From: a virus
Virus record (IMG/VR): IMGVR_UViG_3300019926_000160
Location: 1-24,574 of that record
Length of the DNA: 24,574 bases
Reading direction: 5' to 3' (one strand)
Numbering within the stretch: position 1 is the first letter of the stretch; every line of letters starts with the position of its first letter. Both the position numbers and the translations under genes were made by a program. This document shows positions 7,435 to 22,144 of this stretch, one piece after another. Under the pieces are notes generated by a model that saw nothing but the letters and a program-made list of their open reading frames with translations, was not told the origin of the DNA and did no database searches.

Positions 7435-7444
7435 TAAGTATTAT
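7435..7444 (+). promoter_or_regulatory. candidate TATA box for the HNH cassette
   Basis: The AT-rich run TAAGTATTAT stands out in the GC-rich background. It lies about 27 bases before 7468, where the left arm of the leader hairpin begins, which is the right distance for archaeal transcription to start there. It resembles a haloarchaeal TATA element only loosely, and no clear BRE is seen. Confidence 0.3.
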
Positions 7445-7467
7445 GCGCGTAGAGACGCCACTAGTAG

Positions 7468-7532
7468 CCAAGAGCGCGTTTCCTGAAAAGGCCGGCGTGG
7501 TAGCGCCGACCGCGCTCTTGGAGACCAAGAGC
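7468..7532 (+). promoter_or_regulatory. bistable leader hairpins over the HNH start codon
   Basis: Three copies of one octamer set up two exclusive stems. CCAAGAGCGCG (7468-7478) pairs perfectly over 11 bp with CGCGCTCTTGG (7511-7521). The same GCTCTTGG (7514-7521) can instead pair perfectly over 8 bp with CCAAGAGC (7525-7532) around an AGA loop, ending directly at the ATG (7533). The GGAG Shine-Dalgarno-like element (7520-7523) lies across the right arm and the proximal loop, so it is partly masked in either fold. A second stem (7491-7497 with 7504-7510, one mismatch) nests inside the long hairpin. Translational control of the endonuclease is inferred. Confidence 0.6.
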
Positions 7533-8114
7533 ATGAGCCAATACACGTTGGAGGAGTATAATCCTCCGGGGCAGCAAATTGTACGGCCGTGTCGGGAGTG
7601 CGGTTCACCCGTCTCAAGAAGTCCGTCAGAGATGGAAGACGACAAACGCCCTTTCTGTTCGCGCGACTGCTATCACGACTGGCGCCGGGGGCGTACCTTT
7701 GGGTCACCTGACGGCAAGGAGTCCTATACCTGCGAGGAGTGTGGCGATACCTTTGAGAAGTGGCCCTCGCAAGGAAAACGCCGCTTCTGTTCGGCCGAGT
7801 GCCGGCACGATTGGTTGTCTTCTCGAACCGGGCAGGACCACCCACTGTGGGAAGGAGGCGTTGACTGGTATCGCGCAATCCGCTCCGCGCACGGGCCAAC
7901 CGGGTGGCACACGCAGCGAAAAGAACACCTCGCTGATGAGTGTGAAAACTGCGGTGAGGGTGAAGCCACACTGTCGCTCCACCACATCGTTCCGGTCCTC
8001 GCTGGCGGACCCAACGCGTCCTGGAACTACATGACGCTCTGCCGGACATGTCACCAGCGAGCCGAGGACTACTGTCGGGATCTCCCCGGAATGGAGGCGG
8101 TGCTAACAGAATGA
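7533..8114 (+). CDS. HNH homing-type endonuclease with zinc ribbons
   Basis: A 193-residue protein. Two zinc knuckles (C20, C23, C42, C46 and C67, C70, C86, C90) precede an HNH nuclease core with C137-C140, the LSLHHIVPVLAGG strand (His150/His151), Asn in NASWNY, and C170-C173-H174. This architecture is common in free-standing homing endonucleases of tailed viruses, which cut one allele of a neighbouring gene and spread by repair. The frame is open to an upstream ATG at 7443, but ATG 7533 is preferred: it has a GGAG nine bases upstream, and the extension merely translates the hairpin. GC content is lower than in flanking head genes. It overlaps the next gene as ATGA. Confidence 0.85.
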   Translation: MSQYTLEEYNPPGQQIVRPCRECGSPVSRSPSEMEDDKRPFCSRDCYHDWRRGRTFGSPDGKESYTCEECGDTFEKWPSQGKRRFCSAECRHDWLSSRTGQDHPLWEGGVDWYRAIRSAHGPTGWHTQRKEHLADECENCGEGEATLSLHHIVPVLAGGPNASWNYMTLCRTCHQRAEDYCRDLPGMEAVLTE

Positions 8115-14106: not shown

Positions 14107-15339
14107 ATGAGTACTGATCAAGCGCCCGTTGAGAGCGGGCTCCAAGACATCCGCACCGAGTGGGTCGCCGAGACGACCCCCGGCGAGTTTCCGACCGACC
14201 CCGCGTGGGGCGCGTTTGCGCCGGAAATCTCGGAATTCACGTATAGCACGGACGGAAACAAGGAGGGTCGTGAGACGCTCGGCCAAGTCGACCCTGCCGC
14301 CTACGACCGCGCTGCCGAGTCGGCGTCGGCGACGATCTCCTACCGGCAGGCGAAATTCCCGGTCGCGAGCGACGGCACTGTTCAGGACCCGATCGCGTAT
14401 CCGATCGTCGCCGACCCGAGCGAGGACTATCCGAGCCACACGGTCGTCGAGCGCCGCGAGGTCGTCTCCGGCGGCGCGACGGGTGCTGGCTTTCGCGAGT
14501 TCGCTGTTCTCTCGGGCGCACGCCCCGTCGGCGCGTCCTTCGACGGCGACCCCTCGAGTACCGAGCCGATCCCGCAGGAGCTAACCTACGAGGCCGAACG
14601 CGCCCGGACCCACATCATCCACCAGCCGAGCGGCGACGCGACGCTGACGGTCTCCTCGACGGACACGGGTGACACCAACGACGTCATCATTGAGTCCGAG
14701 GGTGCCGCCACGACAGAGACCGTCTCGCTGCCCGGGTCGGACCCGAATGAGGTCACGACAACGGAGACGTTTTCCGACATCGACGCGATCAAAGTCGAGG
14801 GCGAGCACGCGGGCGACATCCAGGTCTCGGTGGATGGCACCGACCTCCTCGAGACGCCGCTCACGGGAACGAACACCGACGGCGTCGACTCCGTCGCGGG
14901 TGTCCCGGCCCTCGGCGGCGGATCGCACGCCACGCCGACAGCCGAGGCCGGCCCGCAGTTCCTCGGCACCGACGCCACCTGGACCGGCGCGGCGCTGTCC
15001 GACCGCGTCCACGCGCTGAATCTCGACGTCGAGTTCGACAGCGACCGGAACGCCCAACAGGGCAGTCGGACGGAGACGATCGATGTCGGGACCCGCTCGA
15101 TTAGCGTCGATGCGGACGTCGCCGGCCCCTACGAGACGGCTACGCGCATCAAGGAACATCACCGCGACAAGTCGGGCGATCTCGTGTGGACGTTCGCCAA
15201 CGGCGAGACGATCACTATCAAGAACGCTGTCCTCACGGATGCGCCGGACTACACCCGCAGTGCCGGGGACACGAATTATATACCGTCGGTGACATTTGGG
15301 GCGTCGGGTGACCCCGCTATCGAAATCAACAACGACTAG
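14107..15339 (+). CDS. major tail tube protein with Ig-like insert
   Basis: A 410-residue protein. The N-terminal part (SGLQDIRTEWVAETTPGEFP, then WGAFAPEISEFTYS) and the C-terminal part (ALNLDVEFDSD, NLVWTF-like GDLVWTFANGETITIKNAVL, DAPDYTRSAGD) fit siphovirus tail-tube proteins. Residues about 165-255 are Ser/Thr/Asp-rich beta sequence (DATLTVSSTDTGDTNDVIIES) and look like an inserted Ig-like or Big-type domain displayed on the tail surface. That explains the large size; about 200-300 residues would be usual. No sheath gene follows, so the tail should be non-contractile. A 38-base spacer separates it from the tail terminator. Confidence 0.77.
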   Translation: MSTDQAPVESGLQDIRTEWVAETTPGEFPTDPAWGAFAPEISEFTYSTDGNKEGRETLGQVDPAAYDRAAESASATISYRQAKFPVASDGTVQDPIAYPIVADPSEDYPSHTVVERREVVSGGATGAGFREFAVLSGARPVGASFDGDPSSTEPIPQELTYEAERARTHIIHQPSGDATLTVSSTDTGDTNDVIIESEGAATTETVSLPGSDPNEVTTTETFSDIDAIKVEGEHAGDIQVSVDGTDLLETPLTGTNTDGVDSVAGVPALGGGSHATPTAEAGPQFLGTDATWTGAALSDRVHALNLDVEFDSDRNAQQGSRTETIDVGTRSISVDADVAGPYETATRIKEHHRDKSGDLVWTFANGETITIKNAVLTDAPDYTRSAGDTNYIPSVTFGASGDPAIEINND

Positions 15340-15341
15340 TC

Positions 15342-15695
15342 ATGAGTGACGACACAGAGGTGGTAAGTTTTGAAGAGGGCGCAGCGATTCTCTCGGAGCG
15401 GGCGACCTTTGAGGGAAACGTCCAGATCGGCGGTAAGACCATCCCCATTGAAGTGGATGAGCCGACACTTGAGGAACTCGAAGAAATCGAGGCTGGGCTG
15501 CCGGAGGACGCCGAAGAGGTCGACGTCGCCCGCGAGATGGTCGATCGGTACCTCGTCCGCCCCGATATCGAGGCAAAAACGCTCGGAATCACACGGGCGC
15601 TGGCGCTGTTTGCGGGCCTTCAACAGACGTGGCAACAGGCCGACGCCTTCGAGGCCGCTAAAGCGGAGATGGAGCTTCCCGAGGGAAACGCATAG
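15342..15695 (+). CDS. tail assembly chaperone, short form (gpG-like)
   Basis: A 117-residue acidic protein two bases after the tail-tube stop. The body is a beta strand segment (GNVQIGGKTIPIEVDEPTLEEL) and then helices (DVAREMVDRYLVRP, ALALFAGLQQTWQQADAF). Its position between tail tube and tape measure is that of the lambda G gene. It should coat the tape measure during tail assembly. The last codons contain the slippery heptamer GGGAAAC, allowing part of the ribosomes to make the longer form. Confidence 0.83.
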   Translation: MSDDTEVVSFEEGAAILSERATFEGNVQIGGKTIPIEVDEPTLEELEEIEAGLPEDAEEVDVAREMVDRYLVRPDIEAKTLGITRALALFAGLQQTWQQADAFEAAKAEMELPEGNA

Positions 15696-15943
15696 AGCTG
15701 CCGCCGCTGGCCGAACGGGCGCTCATGGTCAAACGCCTCCATGAACACGGCTATCGGTTTTCGTGGCCGCCGACAATCGGGGCGCTCACCCCGCGGCAAC
15801 AGGCTCTGCTTCAGCTGGCCGAGCGAGCGGAGACGTATCTTGAATATGAACGAAATGAACGGGAGAAGGCCGCTCGCGAGACGGGCAGCCGCCCGGACCA
15901 CTTCGGCGACGTGACGGAGTCGCGACGGTCGGCGTTCCAGTAG
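15342..15943 (+). CDS. tail assembly chaperone, long form by -1 frameshift (gpGT-like)
   Basis: A -1 slip at GGGAAAC (15683-15689) changes the frame six bases before the short-form stop (TAG 15693-15695). The extension reads RIELPPLAERALMVKRLHEH, then GYRFSWPPTIGALTPRQQAL and a charged helix to TAG 15941-15943. The predicted product has 200 residues: 116 shared and 84 unique. The extension has good codon bias, and the pattern before its first ATG (15725) is already coding-like, which argues for fusion rather than an independent start. In lambda the equivalent gpGT recruits tail-tube subunits to the chaperone-coated tape measure. Confidence 0.8.
15683..15724 (+). promoter_or_regulatory. -1 programmed frameshift site with downstream stem
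   Basis: The heptamer G GGA AAC is exactly in phase (X XXY YYZ) with the short chaperone frame. A possible stem begins five bases later: GAGC (15695-15698) pairs with GCTC (15721-15724), and after a one-base bulge GCC (15700-15702) pairs with GGC (15718-15720). The spacer length is typical of -1 stimulators. The stem is modest and its need is untested. Confidence 0.8.
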
Positions 15944-16147
15944 TTACGCCCGCTCCGTTCGGGCGTCCTCAATCACGACGGTCGGCGACGTTTTCAGTGT
16001 CATAACGTGAAACGTCTTGGTGATCGTGTAGACGCCGATGGGGAAGAAAATGATCGACCCCATGAGCATGAGCGACAGCACGAACCACAGAATGCCGAAC
16101 CACCACCCGACGAGGACGAACCATGTCCCGCGGAGTATTAGTCCCAT
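15944..16147 (-). CDS. YccF-like small membrane protein, probable moron
   Basis: A 67-residue protein on the reverse strand, between the tail assembly chaperone and the tape measure. It is strongly hydrophobic: ILRGTWFVLVGWWFGILWFVL and then MLMGSIIFFPIGVYTITK make one or two membrane segments, with a short acidic C-terminus (VVIEDARTERA). The W-F-x-L-x-G-W-W and IPxG-like turn recall the YccF domain of inner-membrane proteins. Its stop begins at the base immediately after the chaperone stop. Opposite orientation, own promoter and compact size fit a moron, an extra gene serving the lysogenised host or excluding other viruses. The function is unknown. Confidence 0.8.
   Translation of the reverse strand: MGLILRGTWFVLVGWWFGILWFVLSLMLMGSIIFFPIGVYTITKTFHVMTLKTSPTVVIEDARTERA
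15946..15966. terminator. inverted repeat at the convergent gene junction
   Basis: ACGCCCG (15946-15952) pairs perfectly with CGGGCGT (15960-15966) around a 7-base loop, just where the chaperone and the reverse membrane-protein gene converge. It could slow or stop transcription in either direction, but it lacks a T-tract, and late transcription must pass it to reach the tape measure. Confidence 0.35.
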
Positions 16148-16196: not shown

Positions 16197-18665
16197 ATGG
16201 CCTTTGACGGACTTGACATCAACATCTCCGCCTCGGCAGCGGATGCAACGTCGACGATCGCCTCCGTCAAGACGTCACTCGGGTCACTCGAGCGAAGCGC
16301 GAACGACGCCGACGACTCGATGGAGGAACTCGGGGACTCGACATCATCGACGGCGGCGAAGATGGCCGGTCTCGGCACCGTTGCCGGGTCGACCGCGGTC
16401 TCACTGACCGGCCTCTCGACCGCCGGGACGGGCGCGTCGGCGTCGATGACCGCCCTCGGCGTCTCCGTGGGGACGGCGGCGACGGCGATTACCGGCCTCG
16501 CTGCCGTGGCCGCCCCGCTGGTGGCGACGCTCGGCGCAGTCGGGGCGGCGGCGTCCGGGCTGGCAGCCGGGTTTTCGGCGGTTGTCGGGTCGGGCGTGCT
16601 CGCCTTCGGCGAAGAGCGTGCCCAACAGAACGAGCGCGAACTCCGACAGATAAACGCCCGGATTGCCGAACTCGAGCGTCTTGAATCAACCGAGGAGGGC
16701 CTCACTGCCGCCCAAGCGAACGAACTCGACCAACTCGAGGAGAAAGCGGATAAAGTCGAGGAGACGACGACCGTCACCGGGGCGCTGGCGGGCGTCGTGG
16801 GCGACCTTCGCGAGGAGATCCAGCCACTCGTCGTTGACCTTGGGCGCGAGTTCGTCCCGTTGATTGAGGCCGCCGTCGACGCGATCCCGCGCCTCGTCGA
16901 GTCGATTATCGACGCTTTGGGACCACTTGAGCCGTTCCGAGACGCGCTGCGGCAGTTCGGCGCGGCGGCGATGGAGGCGATTCCGAACCTCACAGCTGCG
17001 CTGTTAGATCTCGGGCGTGAGGCGCTCCCGGTCCTTGGGGATCTAATTCGGCGCTTCGGTGAGGCGTCCGACGGCCTTCTCGATAGTTTCGTCCAAATTA
17101 GCGAGCGAATCGGCGACGACTTGATGCAGTTGGGTGGGGCGATTAGCGACGTTCTCCCTGACCTCACCGAGCTGGGGGTCATCATTATCGAGGGCGTAAC
17201 GCCGCATCTTGACAGCCTCCTCGGCCACGTTGAGGCCGCCATCGAGACGTTCAACCGCTTCGTTCGATCCGGCGACGCGGCGGCGATCATGCGAGCGCTC
17301 CGACAGGAGATCGTTCCGTTGATCCCGCGGGTGAAAGCCCTCGCAGCCGAGTTCCGACCGCTATTCAACGAACTCGTCGACGAACTTCCGAACATTATCG
17401 AGGGCCTCGGCGCGGTCGGGGACACGTTGCTTGACATCGGCGAGGCTGTCGCGCCGGTCGTCGTCCCAGCGCTGACGAAGATCGTCGACCTGATCGGGTC
17501 GGCGGGGTCGTACTTTGCCGACTGGGTCGAAGCCTCTGAGGAGAGTGAAGCCGATCTCGCGAGCGACATTGAGTCGCTACGGCGGACTTACGACCGCACG
17601 CTTGGTCGAATCCGACGGGCGTTCGGGCGACTCCGGCGGCGAGTCAGTGGCGTCGTCGGCAACATCCGGCAGCGACTGCGTGGGATCGCGACGTGGGTGC
17701 GGTCGGGGTGGTCGCTTGCCTCAGCCGCAGGGGCCGTTTTCGGCGCCCTTCTCGCCGAGGCCGAGTCGCTTAAAACGTCGCTCGTCGGCGAAGACGGCGT
17801 CCTTCCAAGCATCTTTCGCGACTTCGCGTCGTGGGTCCAGTCGACCGCGACGACGCTGTTGAGCAACGCGTTCGACACGATTCGGTCGCAACTCTCAAAT
17901 AACGGTCTCGTTTCGCTGTTGAGTTCAATCATCGACGAGGCGTCAGAGGCCATCGAAACGCTGCAAGAGTTGACGACCATCTCAGTAACGGTGCCTGGCT
18001 TCGGAGGCGGTGGCGGCTCCGGTGGCTCGGGTGGCTCCGGATCCGGCGGGGCAGGAGCGACGCCGCCTGCCGAGGGCGGGCCAGGCGAGGATTACGATAG
18101 CTTCGTCGCGTTCAACGACGCGATCGACGCTGGCAACGAGTCGGTGATCACGCAGGCCCGCGCTGACGCCGTCGCGTCGACGAACAGCCAAATCTCATCG
18201 ATCGATGTGAGCGGCGACTCGGTGGCGATCACGTATGATAGTGGTCGTACTCAAGAGAAAGATGTCGGAGGGTACGAGGTGCCGGACGCGGTTCCCGGCT
18301 ACGGCGGAGGGGGCGACGATGACGGCGGCGGTGGTGGCGTCACCGACCCTGGTGACGACGAGTCGCCGGCTTCGCCGACGATCGGCGACGGCGGCGCGGG
18401 CGGCGTCTCCGACCCTCGCGGAGATCCGTCGGTTGGAGATGGCGTCTCCGGCCTCGCGACCGGCGGGTTGATCAAGTCGGCAGGAGCGGCGATCCTCCAT
18501 GCCGGCGAGCGGGTTGTCCCGGCGGCGCAGGTCGGGGACCGCGGTCCCGCACCTGTACAAGGCGGCGTGACGATCGAGTCGCTGACTGTCCAGGCATCCG
18601 GACGGGCCGAGGGCCGCGCCGCCGGGCGCGCACTCAAACAGGAACTCAAACGGTTTGACATCTAA
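16197..18665 (+). CDS. tail tape measure protein
   Basis: An 822-residue protein, the longest in the tail module. The N-terminus is helical and Ala/Ser/Thr-rich, with hydrophobic stretches (LGVSVGTAATAITGLAAVAA, about residues 80-140) that may be membrane-active during DNA entry. Next come a coiled coil (ARIAELERLESTEEGLTAAQ) and a long series of amphipathic helices. A Gly/Ser-rich linker starts near residue 600, and the C-terminus has the tape-measure-type end motif GLATGGLIKSAGAAILHAGERVVPA. At roughly 0.15 nm per residue the tail would be about 120 nm long. A GAGG lies ten bases before the ATG. It overlaps the hub gene as TAATG. Confidence 0.92.
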   Translation: MAFDGLDINISASAADATSTIASVKTSLGSLERSANDADDSMEELGDSTSSTAAKMAGLGTVAGSTAVSLTGLSTAGTGASASMTALGVSVGTAATAITGLAAVAAPLVATLGAVGAAASGLAAGFSAVVGSGVLAFGEERAQQNERELRQINARIAELERLESTEEGLTAAQANELDQLEEKADKVEETTTVTGALAGVVGDLREEIQPLVVDLGREFVPLIEAAVDAIPRLVESIIDALGPLEPFRDALRQFGAAAMEAIPNLTAALLDLGREALPVLGDLIRRFGEASDGLLDSFVQISERIGDDLMQLGGAISDVLPDLTELGVIIIEGVTPHLDSLLGHVEAAIETFNRFVRSGDAAAIMRALRQEIVPLIPRVKALAAEFRPLFNELVDELPNIIEGLGAVGDTLLDIGEAVAPVVVPALTKIVDLIGSAGSYFADWVEASEESEADLASDIESLRRTYDRTLGRIRRAFGRLRRRVSGVVGNIRQRLRGIATWVRSGWSLASAAGAVFGALLAEAESLKTSLVGEDGVLPSIFRDFASWVQSTATTLLSNAFDTIRSQLSNNGLVSLLSSIIDEASEAIETLQELTTISVTVPGFGGGGGSGGSGGSGSGGAGATPPAEGGPGEDYDSFVAFNDAIDAGNESVITQARADAVASTNSQISSIDVSGDSVAITYDSGRTQEKDVGGYEVPDAVPGYGGGGDDDGGGGGVTDPGDDESPASPTIGDGGAGGVSDPRGDPSVGDGVSGLATGGLIKSAGAAILHAGERVVPAAQVGDRGPAPVQGGVTIESLTVQASGRAEGRAAGRALKQELKRFDI

Positions 18666-20082: not shown

Positions 20083-20421
20083 ATGACTGACGAACTCACC
20101 GACGCCGTCCGCCGACTGAAGGAACTGCAAAGCGACGTCGAACGCCTGAAAGCCGCCCGTGACCAGGAGGGTGAACCACGGCTGTTCTTCGAGGCGTCGG
20201 AGGCGGCCGTCGCCATTGACGCGCTGTCGGTGGCGGGCGCGGATCTGTCGGCGGCCGAGGTCGCGGTCGCCATTGACGCGCTGTCGGTGGCGGGCGCGGA
20301 TCTGTCGGCGGCCGAGGTCGCGGTCGCGAGTGACACCCAGGCCGACCTCCGCCTCCAGCGGGCGGTCGAGAACGCGACGTACGGGACGACGGGCTACAAC
20401 ACGAGCACCTACAGCGCATGA
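20083..20421 (+). CDS. short fibre-like protein with 19-residue tandem repeat
   Basis: A 112-residue protein. The N-terminus is a coiled coil (DAVRRLKELQSDVERLKAARD). The middle holds two identical copies of a 19-residue unit (AIDALSVAGADLSAAEVAV), encoded by a perfect 57-bp tandem duplication. The end is Thr/Tyr/Ser-rich (TYGTTGYNTSTYSA). A trimeric coiled-coil stalk with an elongated body is plausible, joining the tail tip to the fibre proteins that follow. It overlaps the next gene by ATGA. No family name is certain. Confidence 0.65.
   Translation: MTDELTDAVRRLKELQSDVERLKAARDQEGEPRLFFEASEAAVAIDALSVAGADLSAAEVAVAIDALSVAGADLSAAEVAVASDTQADLRLQRAVENATYGTTGYNTSTYSA
20209..20322 (+). repeat. 57-bp perfect tandem duplication in coding sequence
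   Basis: Copies at 20209-20265 and 20266-20322 are identical, and identity continues 5 bases further. 57 is a multiple of three, so copy number can change without breaking the frame. The absence of any difference points to a recent event or ongoing slippage/recombination. Confidence 0.9.
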
Positions 20422-21611: not shown

Positions 21612-22144
21612 TGGCTACTGACGCACCAGACACACTCCGAGAGTTGTTCTTCGACGCTGACCGACGCGTCGGGCAGGGACTCGCCACCTATGGCGAGCTT
21701 GATGCGACGGCGTTTGACAGTCTCGAAACGATCGAGGACATTTCCGCCGACGCGACCGCGATGGACCTGCTCGCTACGAGTGCGGCCTATCAAGAGGTCG
21801 CCCGCTCGGTCGTCGCGATGGAGGCACAGGCTGCTGATGCGACCGCGATGGATGCGGTGTCGACGTCGAGTACGGCGATGGATGCGGTGTCGACGTCGAG
21901 TACGGCGATGGACGCGGTGTCGGCGTCGAGTACGGCGATGGATGCGGTGTCGGCGTCCCAGACGGCGAGGGACAGCACCGTCCGAAGAAATCTGGCTGAA
22001 CGGCAACCCGACTCCGCCGGCAAGCCTGAGCGACGGCGGACTCGACGTCGACCTATCGACAGTCGCAGGACGGTCTGGGAACGGCGTCGCGCTGGAGGTC
22101 GCAGGGAACGGGTCGAACTCGAACGGCGGCCCGATCGGTCTTGA
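21611..22144 (+). CDS. tail fibre, N-terminal part with 10-residue repeats (frame breaks)
   Basis: The ATG at 21611 (TAATG overlap) starts a fibre-like protein. A globular/attachment N-terminus is followed by four 10-residue repeats of the type TAMDAVSTSS, encoded by 30-bp units, and TARDSTV. Up to about base 21982 (124 codons) the sequence is fibre-like. The rest of this ORF is Arg-rich nonsense, because the fibre's C-terminal domain continues in the +1 frame. As read here it would be a 177-residue protein with a basic artificial tail. A +1 change near 21980-21984 would restore a fibre of about 264 residues. Confidence 0.65.
   Translation: MATDAPDTLRELFFDADRRVGQGLATYGELDATAFDSLETIEDISADATAMDLLATSAAYQEVARSVVAMEAQAADATAMDAVSTSSTAMDAVSTSSTAMDAVSASSTAMDAVSASQTARDSTVRRNLAERQPDSAGKPERRRTRRRPIDSRRTVWERRRAGGRRERVELERRPDRS
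21845..21964 (+). repeat. four tandem 30-bp repeats in the tail fibre gene
   Basis: Units at 21845-21874, 21875-21904, 21905-21934 and 21935-21964. The first two are identical, and the third and fourth differ by a few bases. Each encodes the decapeptide TAMDAVS(T/A)S(S/Q). The unit length is a multiple of three, so the number of units can vary without frame loss. They probably form an extended stalk. Confidence 0.9.

Follow-up and report, generated by a model that had tools for sequence, protein, structure and literature searches.

What does the second, overlapping reading frame at the end of a putative tail assembly chaperone gene encode in a tailed virus that infects halophilic archaea, and how would ribosomes reach it? 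The locus lies in a virus contig from IMG/VR, 24,574 bases long, the whole of which we refer to as the window. The elements at issue are these.

15342 to 15695, plus strand: putative short tail assembly chaperone, gpG-like, 117 amino acids, frame 0, with homologues at the equivalent place in 20+ loci.
15683 to 15689, plus strand: candidate slippery heptamer G GGA AAC, in phase and one codon before the stop, with GGGAAAC/T kept at this position in 20 loci.
15693 to 15695, plus strand: frame-0 stop codon, TAG, of the short form.
15683 to 15943, plus strand: -1 frame extension, gpT-like, open for 86 codons, with the predicted junction ...PEGN-RIELPP...
15725 to 15727, plus strand: in-frame ATG within the extension, not a conserved start.

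We consider it highly probable, on comparative grounds, that the site directs programmed -1 ribosomal frameshifting in a gene for a tail assembly chaperone of the lambda G/GT type, and that it is very probably functional. Most ribosomes would read G GGA AAC and one further codon and stop at the TAG, yielding the 117-amino-acid short protein. In a minority, the tRNA-Gly on GGA and the tRNA-Asn on AAC would slip back by one base onto GGG AAA, and reading would go on with CGC ATA GAG and so forth, adding 84 residues. By analogy with lambda, we imagine that the short form would bind the tape measure protein, while the long form would recruit the tail tube protein, the two being made in a fixed ratio.

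The frame-0 codons at the site are GAG GGA AAC GCA TAG, and the heptamer is thus in phase as X XXY YYZ. Starting at GGG, 86 codons can be read in the -1 frame, 84 of them beyond the heptamer, before a TAG ending at 15943 closes it. An earlier reading of these letters, made from the sequence only, had given the position, the phase, and the 84-codon frame correctly, and the junction it predicted, EGN-RIELPP, is what tandem slippage should give once GGA AAC has been decoded. Within the window, however, the case is weak: GGGAAAC occurs four times against 2.7 expected, no significant excess of the word by itself, and in this G+C-rich window a -1 frame is open for at least 86 codons at 18% of in-phase gene positions. 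The coding log-likelihood of the second frame, 0.36 per codon, is intermediate. It falls between the -1 frames of the window's genes (-0.79) and 84-codon pieces of the genes themselves (0.65 +/- 0.16), so that the "good codon bias" of the sequence-only reading is no more than moderate.

The same open reading frame holds a second in-phase G GGA AAC, at 15413 to 15419, where a shift into the -1 frame would meet a stop after 7 codons. It has no counterpart in L001, the closest relative, and for both reasons the copy looks incidental. A bare heptamer that was very slippery would cost product at 15413; possibly, then, efficiency is low or context matters. This nonconserved copy offers a natural control for context within a single gene.

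The evidence that carries the argument comes from relatives. With the chaperone sequence as query, one relative, L001 (58% identity), was found in viral contigs and none in genome contigs or phage records; a query with the second domain returned nothing credible, and a plasmid search for relatives gave no match. The L001 chaperone gene ends CAG GGA AAT CCG TAG, with GGGAAAT again in phase. Further loci, among them those of the isolates Hardycor1 and HATV-3 and of many contigs, were found by way of the upstream tail protein (14107 to 15339) and by walking downstream from it. In 20 loci, the window included, the ORF that follows the tail protein gene and precedes the tape measure gene has an in-phase GGGAAAC or GGGAAAT 0 to 5 codons ahead of its stop, followed by a conserved -1 frame of 78 to 101 codons. 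Since it was the upstream gene that retrieved the loci, the presence of the heptamer is not an effect of the search. Some of the loci are closely related (L009 and L010, for example), and we estimate the independent cases at nearer 14 to 16. The short proteins are mostly 15 to 40% identical to that of the window, with most loci below 45%. By comparison, the long open frames of the related loci hold a single in-phase GGGAAAY in 38,206 codons, or about 0.0002 per gene end. This comparative evidence argues that selection keeps GGGAAAY in haloarchaeal viruses.

At one further locus, an A-rich slippery run, CCCAAAAAAAAAG, with nine A (L028, 4687 to 4702), replaces GGGAAAY at the chaperone frame junction.

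Is the second frame itself translated, and from where? Over the full 86 codons of the -1 frame, the stretch before 15725 included, the window shares 63% identity with L001. Their differences in this frame number 23, 16, and 43 at codon positions 1, 2, and 3, and an excess at the third position was seen in all pairs tested. Judged by this pattern, the second frame is under purifying selection. The question of the start is sharper, as an in-frame ATG is present at 15725, and in the GenBank entries of Hardycor1 and HATV-3 the second frame is annotated as a separate gene with an internal ATG as its start. On that view the second frame would be a gene in its own right, with 15725 as the start of a protein of 72 amino acids, and the heptamer would be incidental. 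The comparison speaks against this at each point. L001 has GAA in place of this ATG, and the other aligned sequences, with no Met there, do not start at it either. In three loci (L019, L029, and L041), the entire second frame is free of ATG, GTG, and TTG, and in four others (L008, L020, L027, and L042) start codons come solely far downstream. Moreover, what the -1 frame encodes from heptamer to ATG is a conserved peptide (ELPPLAERAL in the window, DLPPLAERAL in L001); ahead of the ATG, the differences between these two fall 1, 1, and 4 at -1-frame positions 1, 2, and 3, with four of six at the third. The recurrence of the heptamer in 20 loci speaks against it too. Given the nonconserved ATG, the loci without starts, and the conserved peptide ahead of the ATG, we reject independent translation of the second frame and regard separate genes as very improbable.

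Transcriptional slippage would likewise give a fusion of the two frames, and the run of nine A in L028 is of a kind that could favor it. In the window and the 19 other loci, however, the runs are just three G and three A, and for this reason we consider slippage by the polymerase unlikely, indeed as improbable as separate genes. Conservation of both heptamer codons in phase also fits slippage by ribosomes better, being expected for tandem tRNA slippage and unneeded for slippage by polymerase. That the frame break is a sequencing error or the mark of a decayed gene might be suspected of a metagenomic virus contig, but this is hardly credible and is refuted by the relatives, as many independent contigs, and cultured virus genomes too, carry the same break at the equivalent position, with purifying selection on the second frame.

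Programmed -1 frameshifting by ribosomes thus remains our preferred reading. The sequence-only reading had named as contrary findings relatives that lack the heptamer and the second frame, or a second ORF translated from 15725. What was found favors it: heptamer, second frame, and gene order are all kept in relatives, supporting a -1 frameshift in the chaperone of an archaeal tailed virus, and the 15725 start is not conserved.

What might stimulate the slip is a separate matter. A plausible stem starting five bases after the heptamer had been proposed, but folding of the window's downstream sequence is no better than that of shuffled sequence (z = -0.10 for 81 nt and +0.33 for 35 nt, ranging to +0.58). 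Across the 20 loci, the mean z for downstream folding is -0.28 (35 nt), -0.44 (60 nt), and -0.46 (90 nt), and no common pseudoknot-free structure was found among them downstream. With z near 0 and nothing in common among the 20 loci, we reject a downstream structure of this kind as the stimulator. Upstream, the 20 nt before the heptamer pair in Shine-Dalgarno-like fashion with the 3′ end of 16S rRNA (AUCACCUCCU), and more strongly (p 0.0003) than windows elsewhere in these genes do. Synonymous recoding of the Glu-rich C terminus yields nearly equal pairing (p 0.10), so that the upstream pairing is mostly explained by the Glu-rich protein sequence.

The gene neighborhood bears on what the two proteins might be. 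In the window, the order is tail protein, chaperone, tape measure, the neighbors being as follows.

14107 to 15339, plus strand: probable major tail protein, 410 amino acids, upstream neighbor; it matches phrog_34360 (E 4e-62), a family with no named function, and is named here by its position.
16197 to 18665, plus strand: tape measure protein, 822 amino acids, downstream neighbor; it matches phrog_58, tail length tape measure (E 5e-14).

The upstream tail protein is 33% identical both to Hardycor1 HrrHc1_105 and to HATV-3 gp29. In the other loci, the start codon of the next gene mostly lies 0 to 48 nt after the second frame. In PHROG and Pfam searches, no family recognizes either half of the chaperone. 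The AlphaFold model of the short protein is confident (pLDDT 83); it had no match in the PDB and, among viral models, two strong matches, both to unnamed proteins (E 1e-11 and 5e-6). Weak fold matches include proteins annotated as tail assembly chaperones, in the actinophages Microbacterium phage Footloose and Arthrobacter phage Salgado (E 0.02 to 0.03, prob 0.95 to 0.97) and in the halovirus Halobacterium phage ChaoS9 (E 0.06, prob 0.69). The name tail assembly chaperone is therefore a putative one, based mainly on position, size, and frameshift, and the functions we assign to the two forms are those that lambda would suggest.

Several other features of the window were noted in passing. On the minus strand, a gene for a 67-amino-acid membrane protein (15944 to 16147), YccF-like but under the Pfam cutoff, separates the chaperone gene from that of the tape measure protein; it has a counterpart at the same place in L001 (4575 to 4790) and turned up in none of the 19 other loci checked. 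In genes past the tape measure gene lie two tandem repeat arrays, at 20209 to 20334 (57-base units, 2.2 copies, 97% alike) and at 21845 to 21972 (30-base units, 4.3 copies, 92% alike). An HNH endonuclease gene (7443 to 8114, plus strand; Pfam HNH, E 1e-9), flanked by head genes, falls where the G+C content is lower.

A sister clade has no such heptamer, which counts against the preferred reading. In L021, L022, L036, L023, L024 (together with L025, L035, L037, and L038), and L046, the second domain lies in the -1 frame directly past the frame-0 stop, at junction codons ACG TAG, CCC TAG, CCC TGA, and GCG TAG. The junctions are at these positions.

L021, 4736 to 4742
L022, 4709 to 4715
L036, 4718 to 4724
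L023, 4725 to 4731
L024, 4695 to 4701
L046, 4694 to 4700

Here the second domain is conserved and shows a third-position excess. We found no in-phase heptamer in the last 15 codons, no usable start codon, and, with relaxed slippery sites, nothing convincing upstream. The agreement of several independent contigs makes an error of sequencing unlikely. We raise, tentatively and short of favoring it, the possibility that chaperone fusion in this group of haloviruses does not always depend on the heptamer and that this clade uses an undescribed -1 (or +2) recoding near the stop, or initiation at a nonstandard codon. The HF1 group offers an analogue, with a +1 shift that lacks a conventional slippery site (PMC7230728).

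How does the window's site compare with known systems? For lambda gpG/gpGT, a -1 frameshift yields a short and a long form (Xu et al. 2004, as described in PMC5009743). The window shares with lambda (GGGAAAG) the gene order, the -1 direction, the type of slippery sequence, and the predicted pair of short and long forms. The differences are that lambda has a bacterial host, that frameshifting and function are experimental in lambda and predicted in the window virus, and that no family model links the two sets of sequences.

Nearer parallels are found among the haloviruses. In HCTV-1 (KC292029, DNAM5_122/123), the identical in-phase G_GGA_AAC has been reported for the tail assembly chaperone (PMC5009743), and the -1 fusion, upstream of the tape measure gene, is annotated as a joined gene. 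There, however, 9 codons separate heptamer and stop, compared to 1 in the window; two more genes intervene before the tape measure gene; and the proteins have no detectable similarity to those of the window in the searches made. Hardycor1 (MT152698; Graaviviridae) has a homologous tail module and a second domain that aligns; its genome paper describes an in-phase G GGA AAT near the 3′ end (HrrHc1_110/115), as well as G GGA AAG in a Natronolimnobius relative (PMC7911831). Its heptamer differs in ending in T, with the stop 5 codons later, and its upstream tail protein has ~33% identity. Such a site having been published already for related archaeal viruses, the novelty of the site is low, and its presentation in the sequence-only reading as new evidence for archaeal slippage was overstated.

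HATV-3 (MZ334527; Pyrstoviridae) has G GGA AAC immediately ahead of the stop and a 78-codon -1 frame, whereas its record annotates gp30 and gp31 (L004, 6203 to 6771) as two separate hypothetical proteins. We suggest a correction of this annotation, as the in-phase heptamer would join them. In the accessible literature, the haloviral mechanism is a prediction, and we found there no direct experimental proof for the site of the window, of HCTV-1, or of Hardycor1. One -1 frameshift in Archaea, in Saccharolobus solfataricus, is experimentally established according to a 2021 review (PMC8211752), and with so few proven cases, a clean test site has some value. Our comparison extends the published halovirus cases (HCTV-1, HCTV-2, HCTV-5, HVTV-1, and Hardycor1) to about 20 loci.
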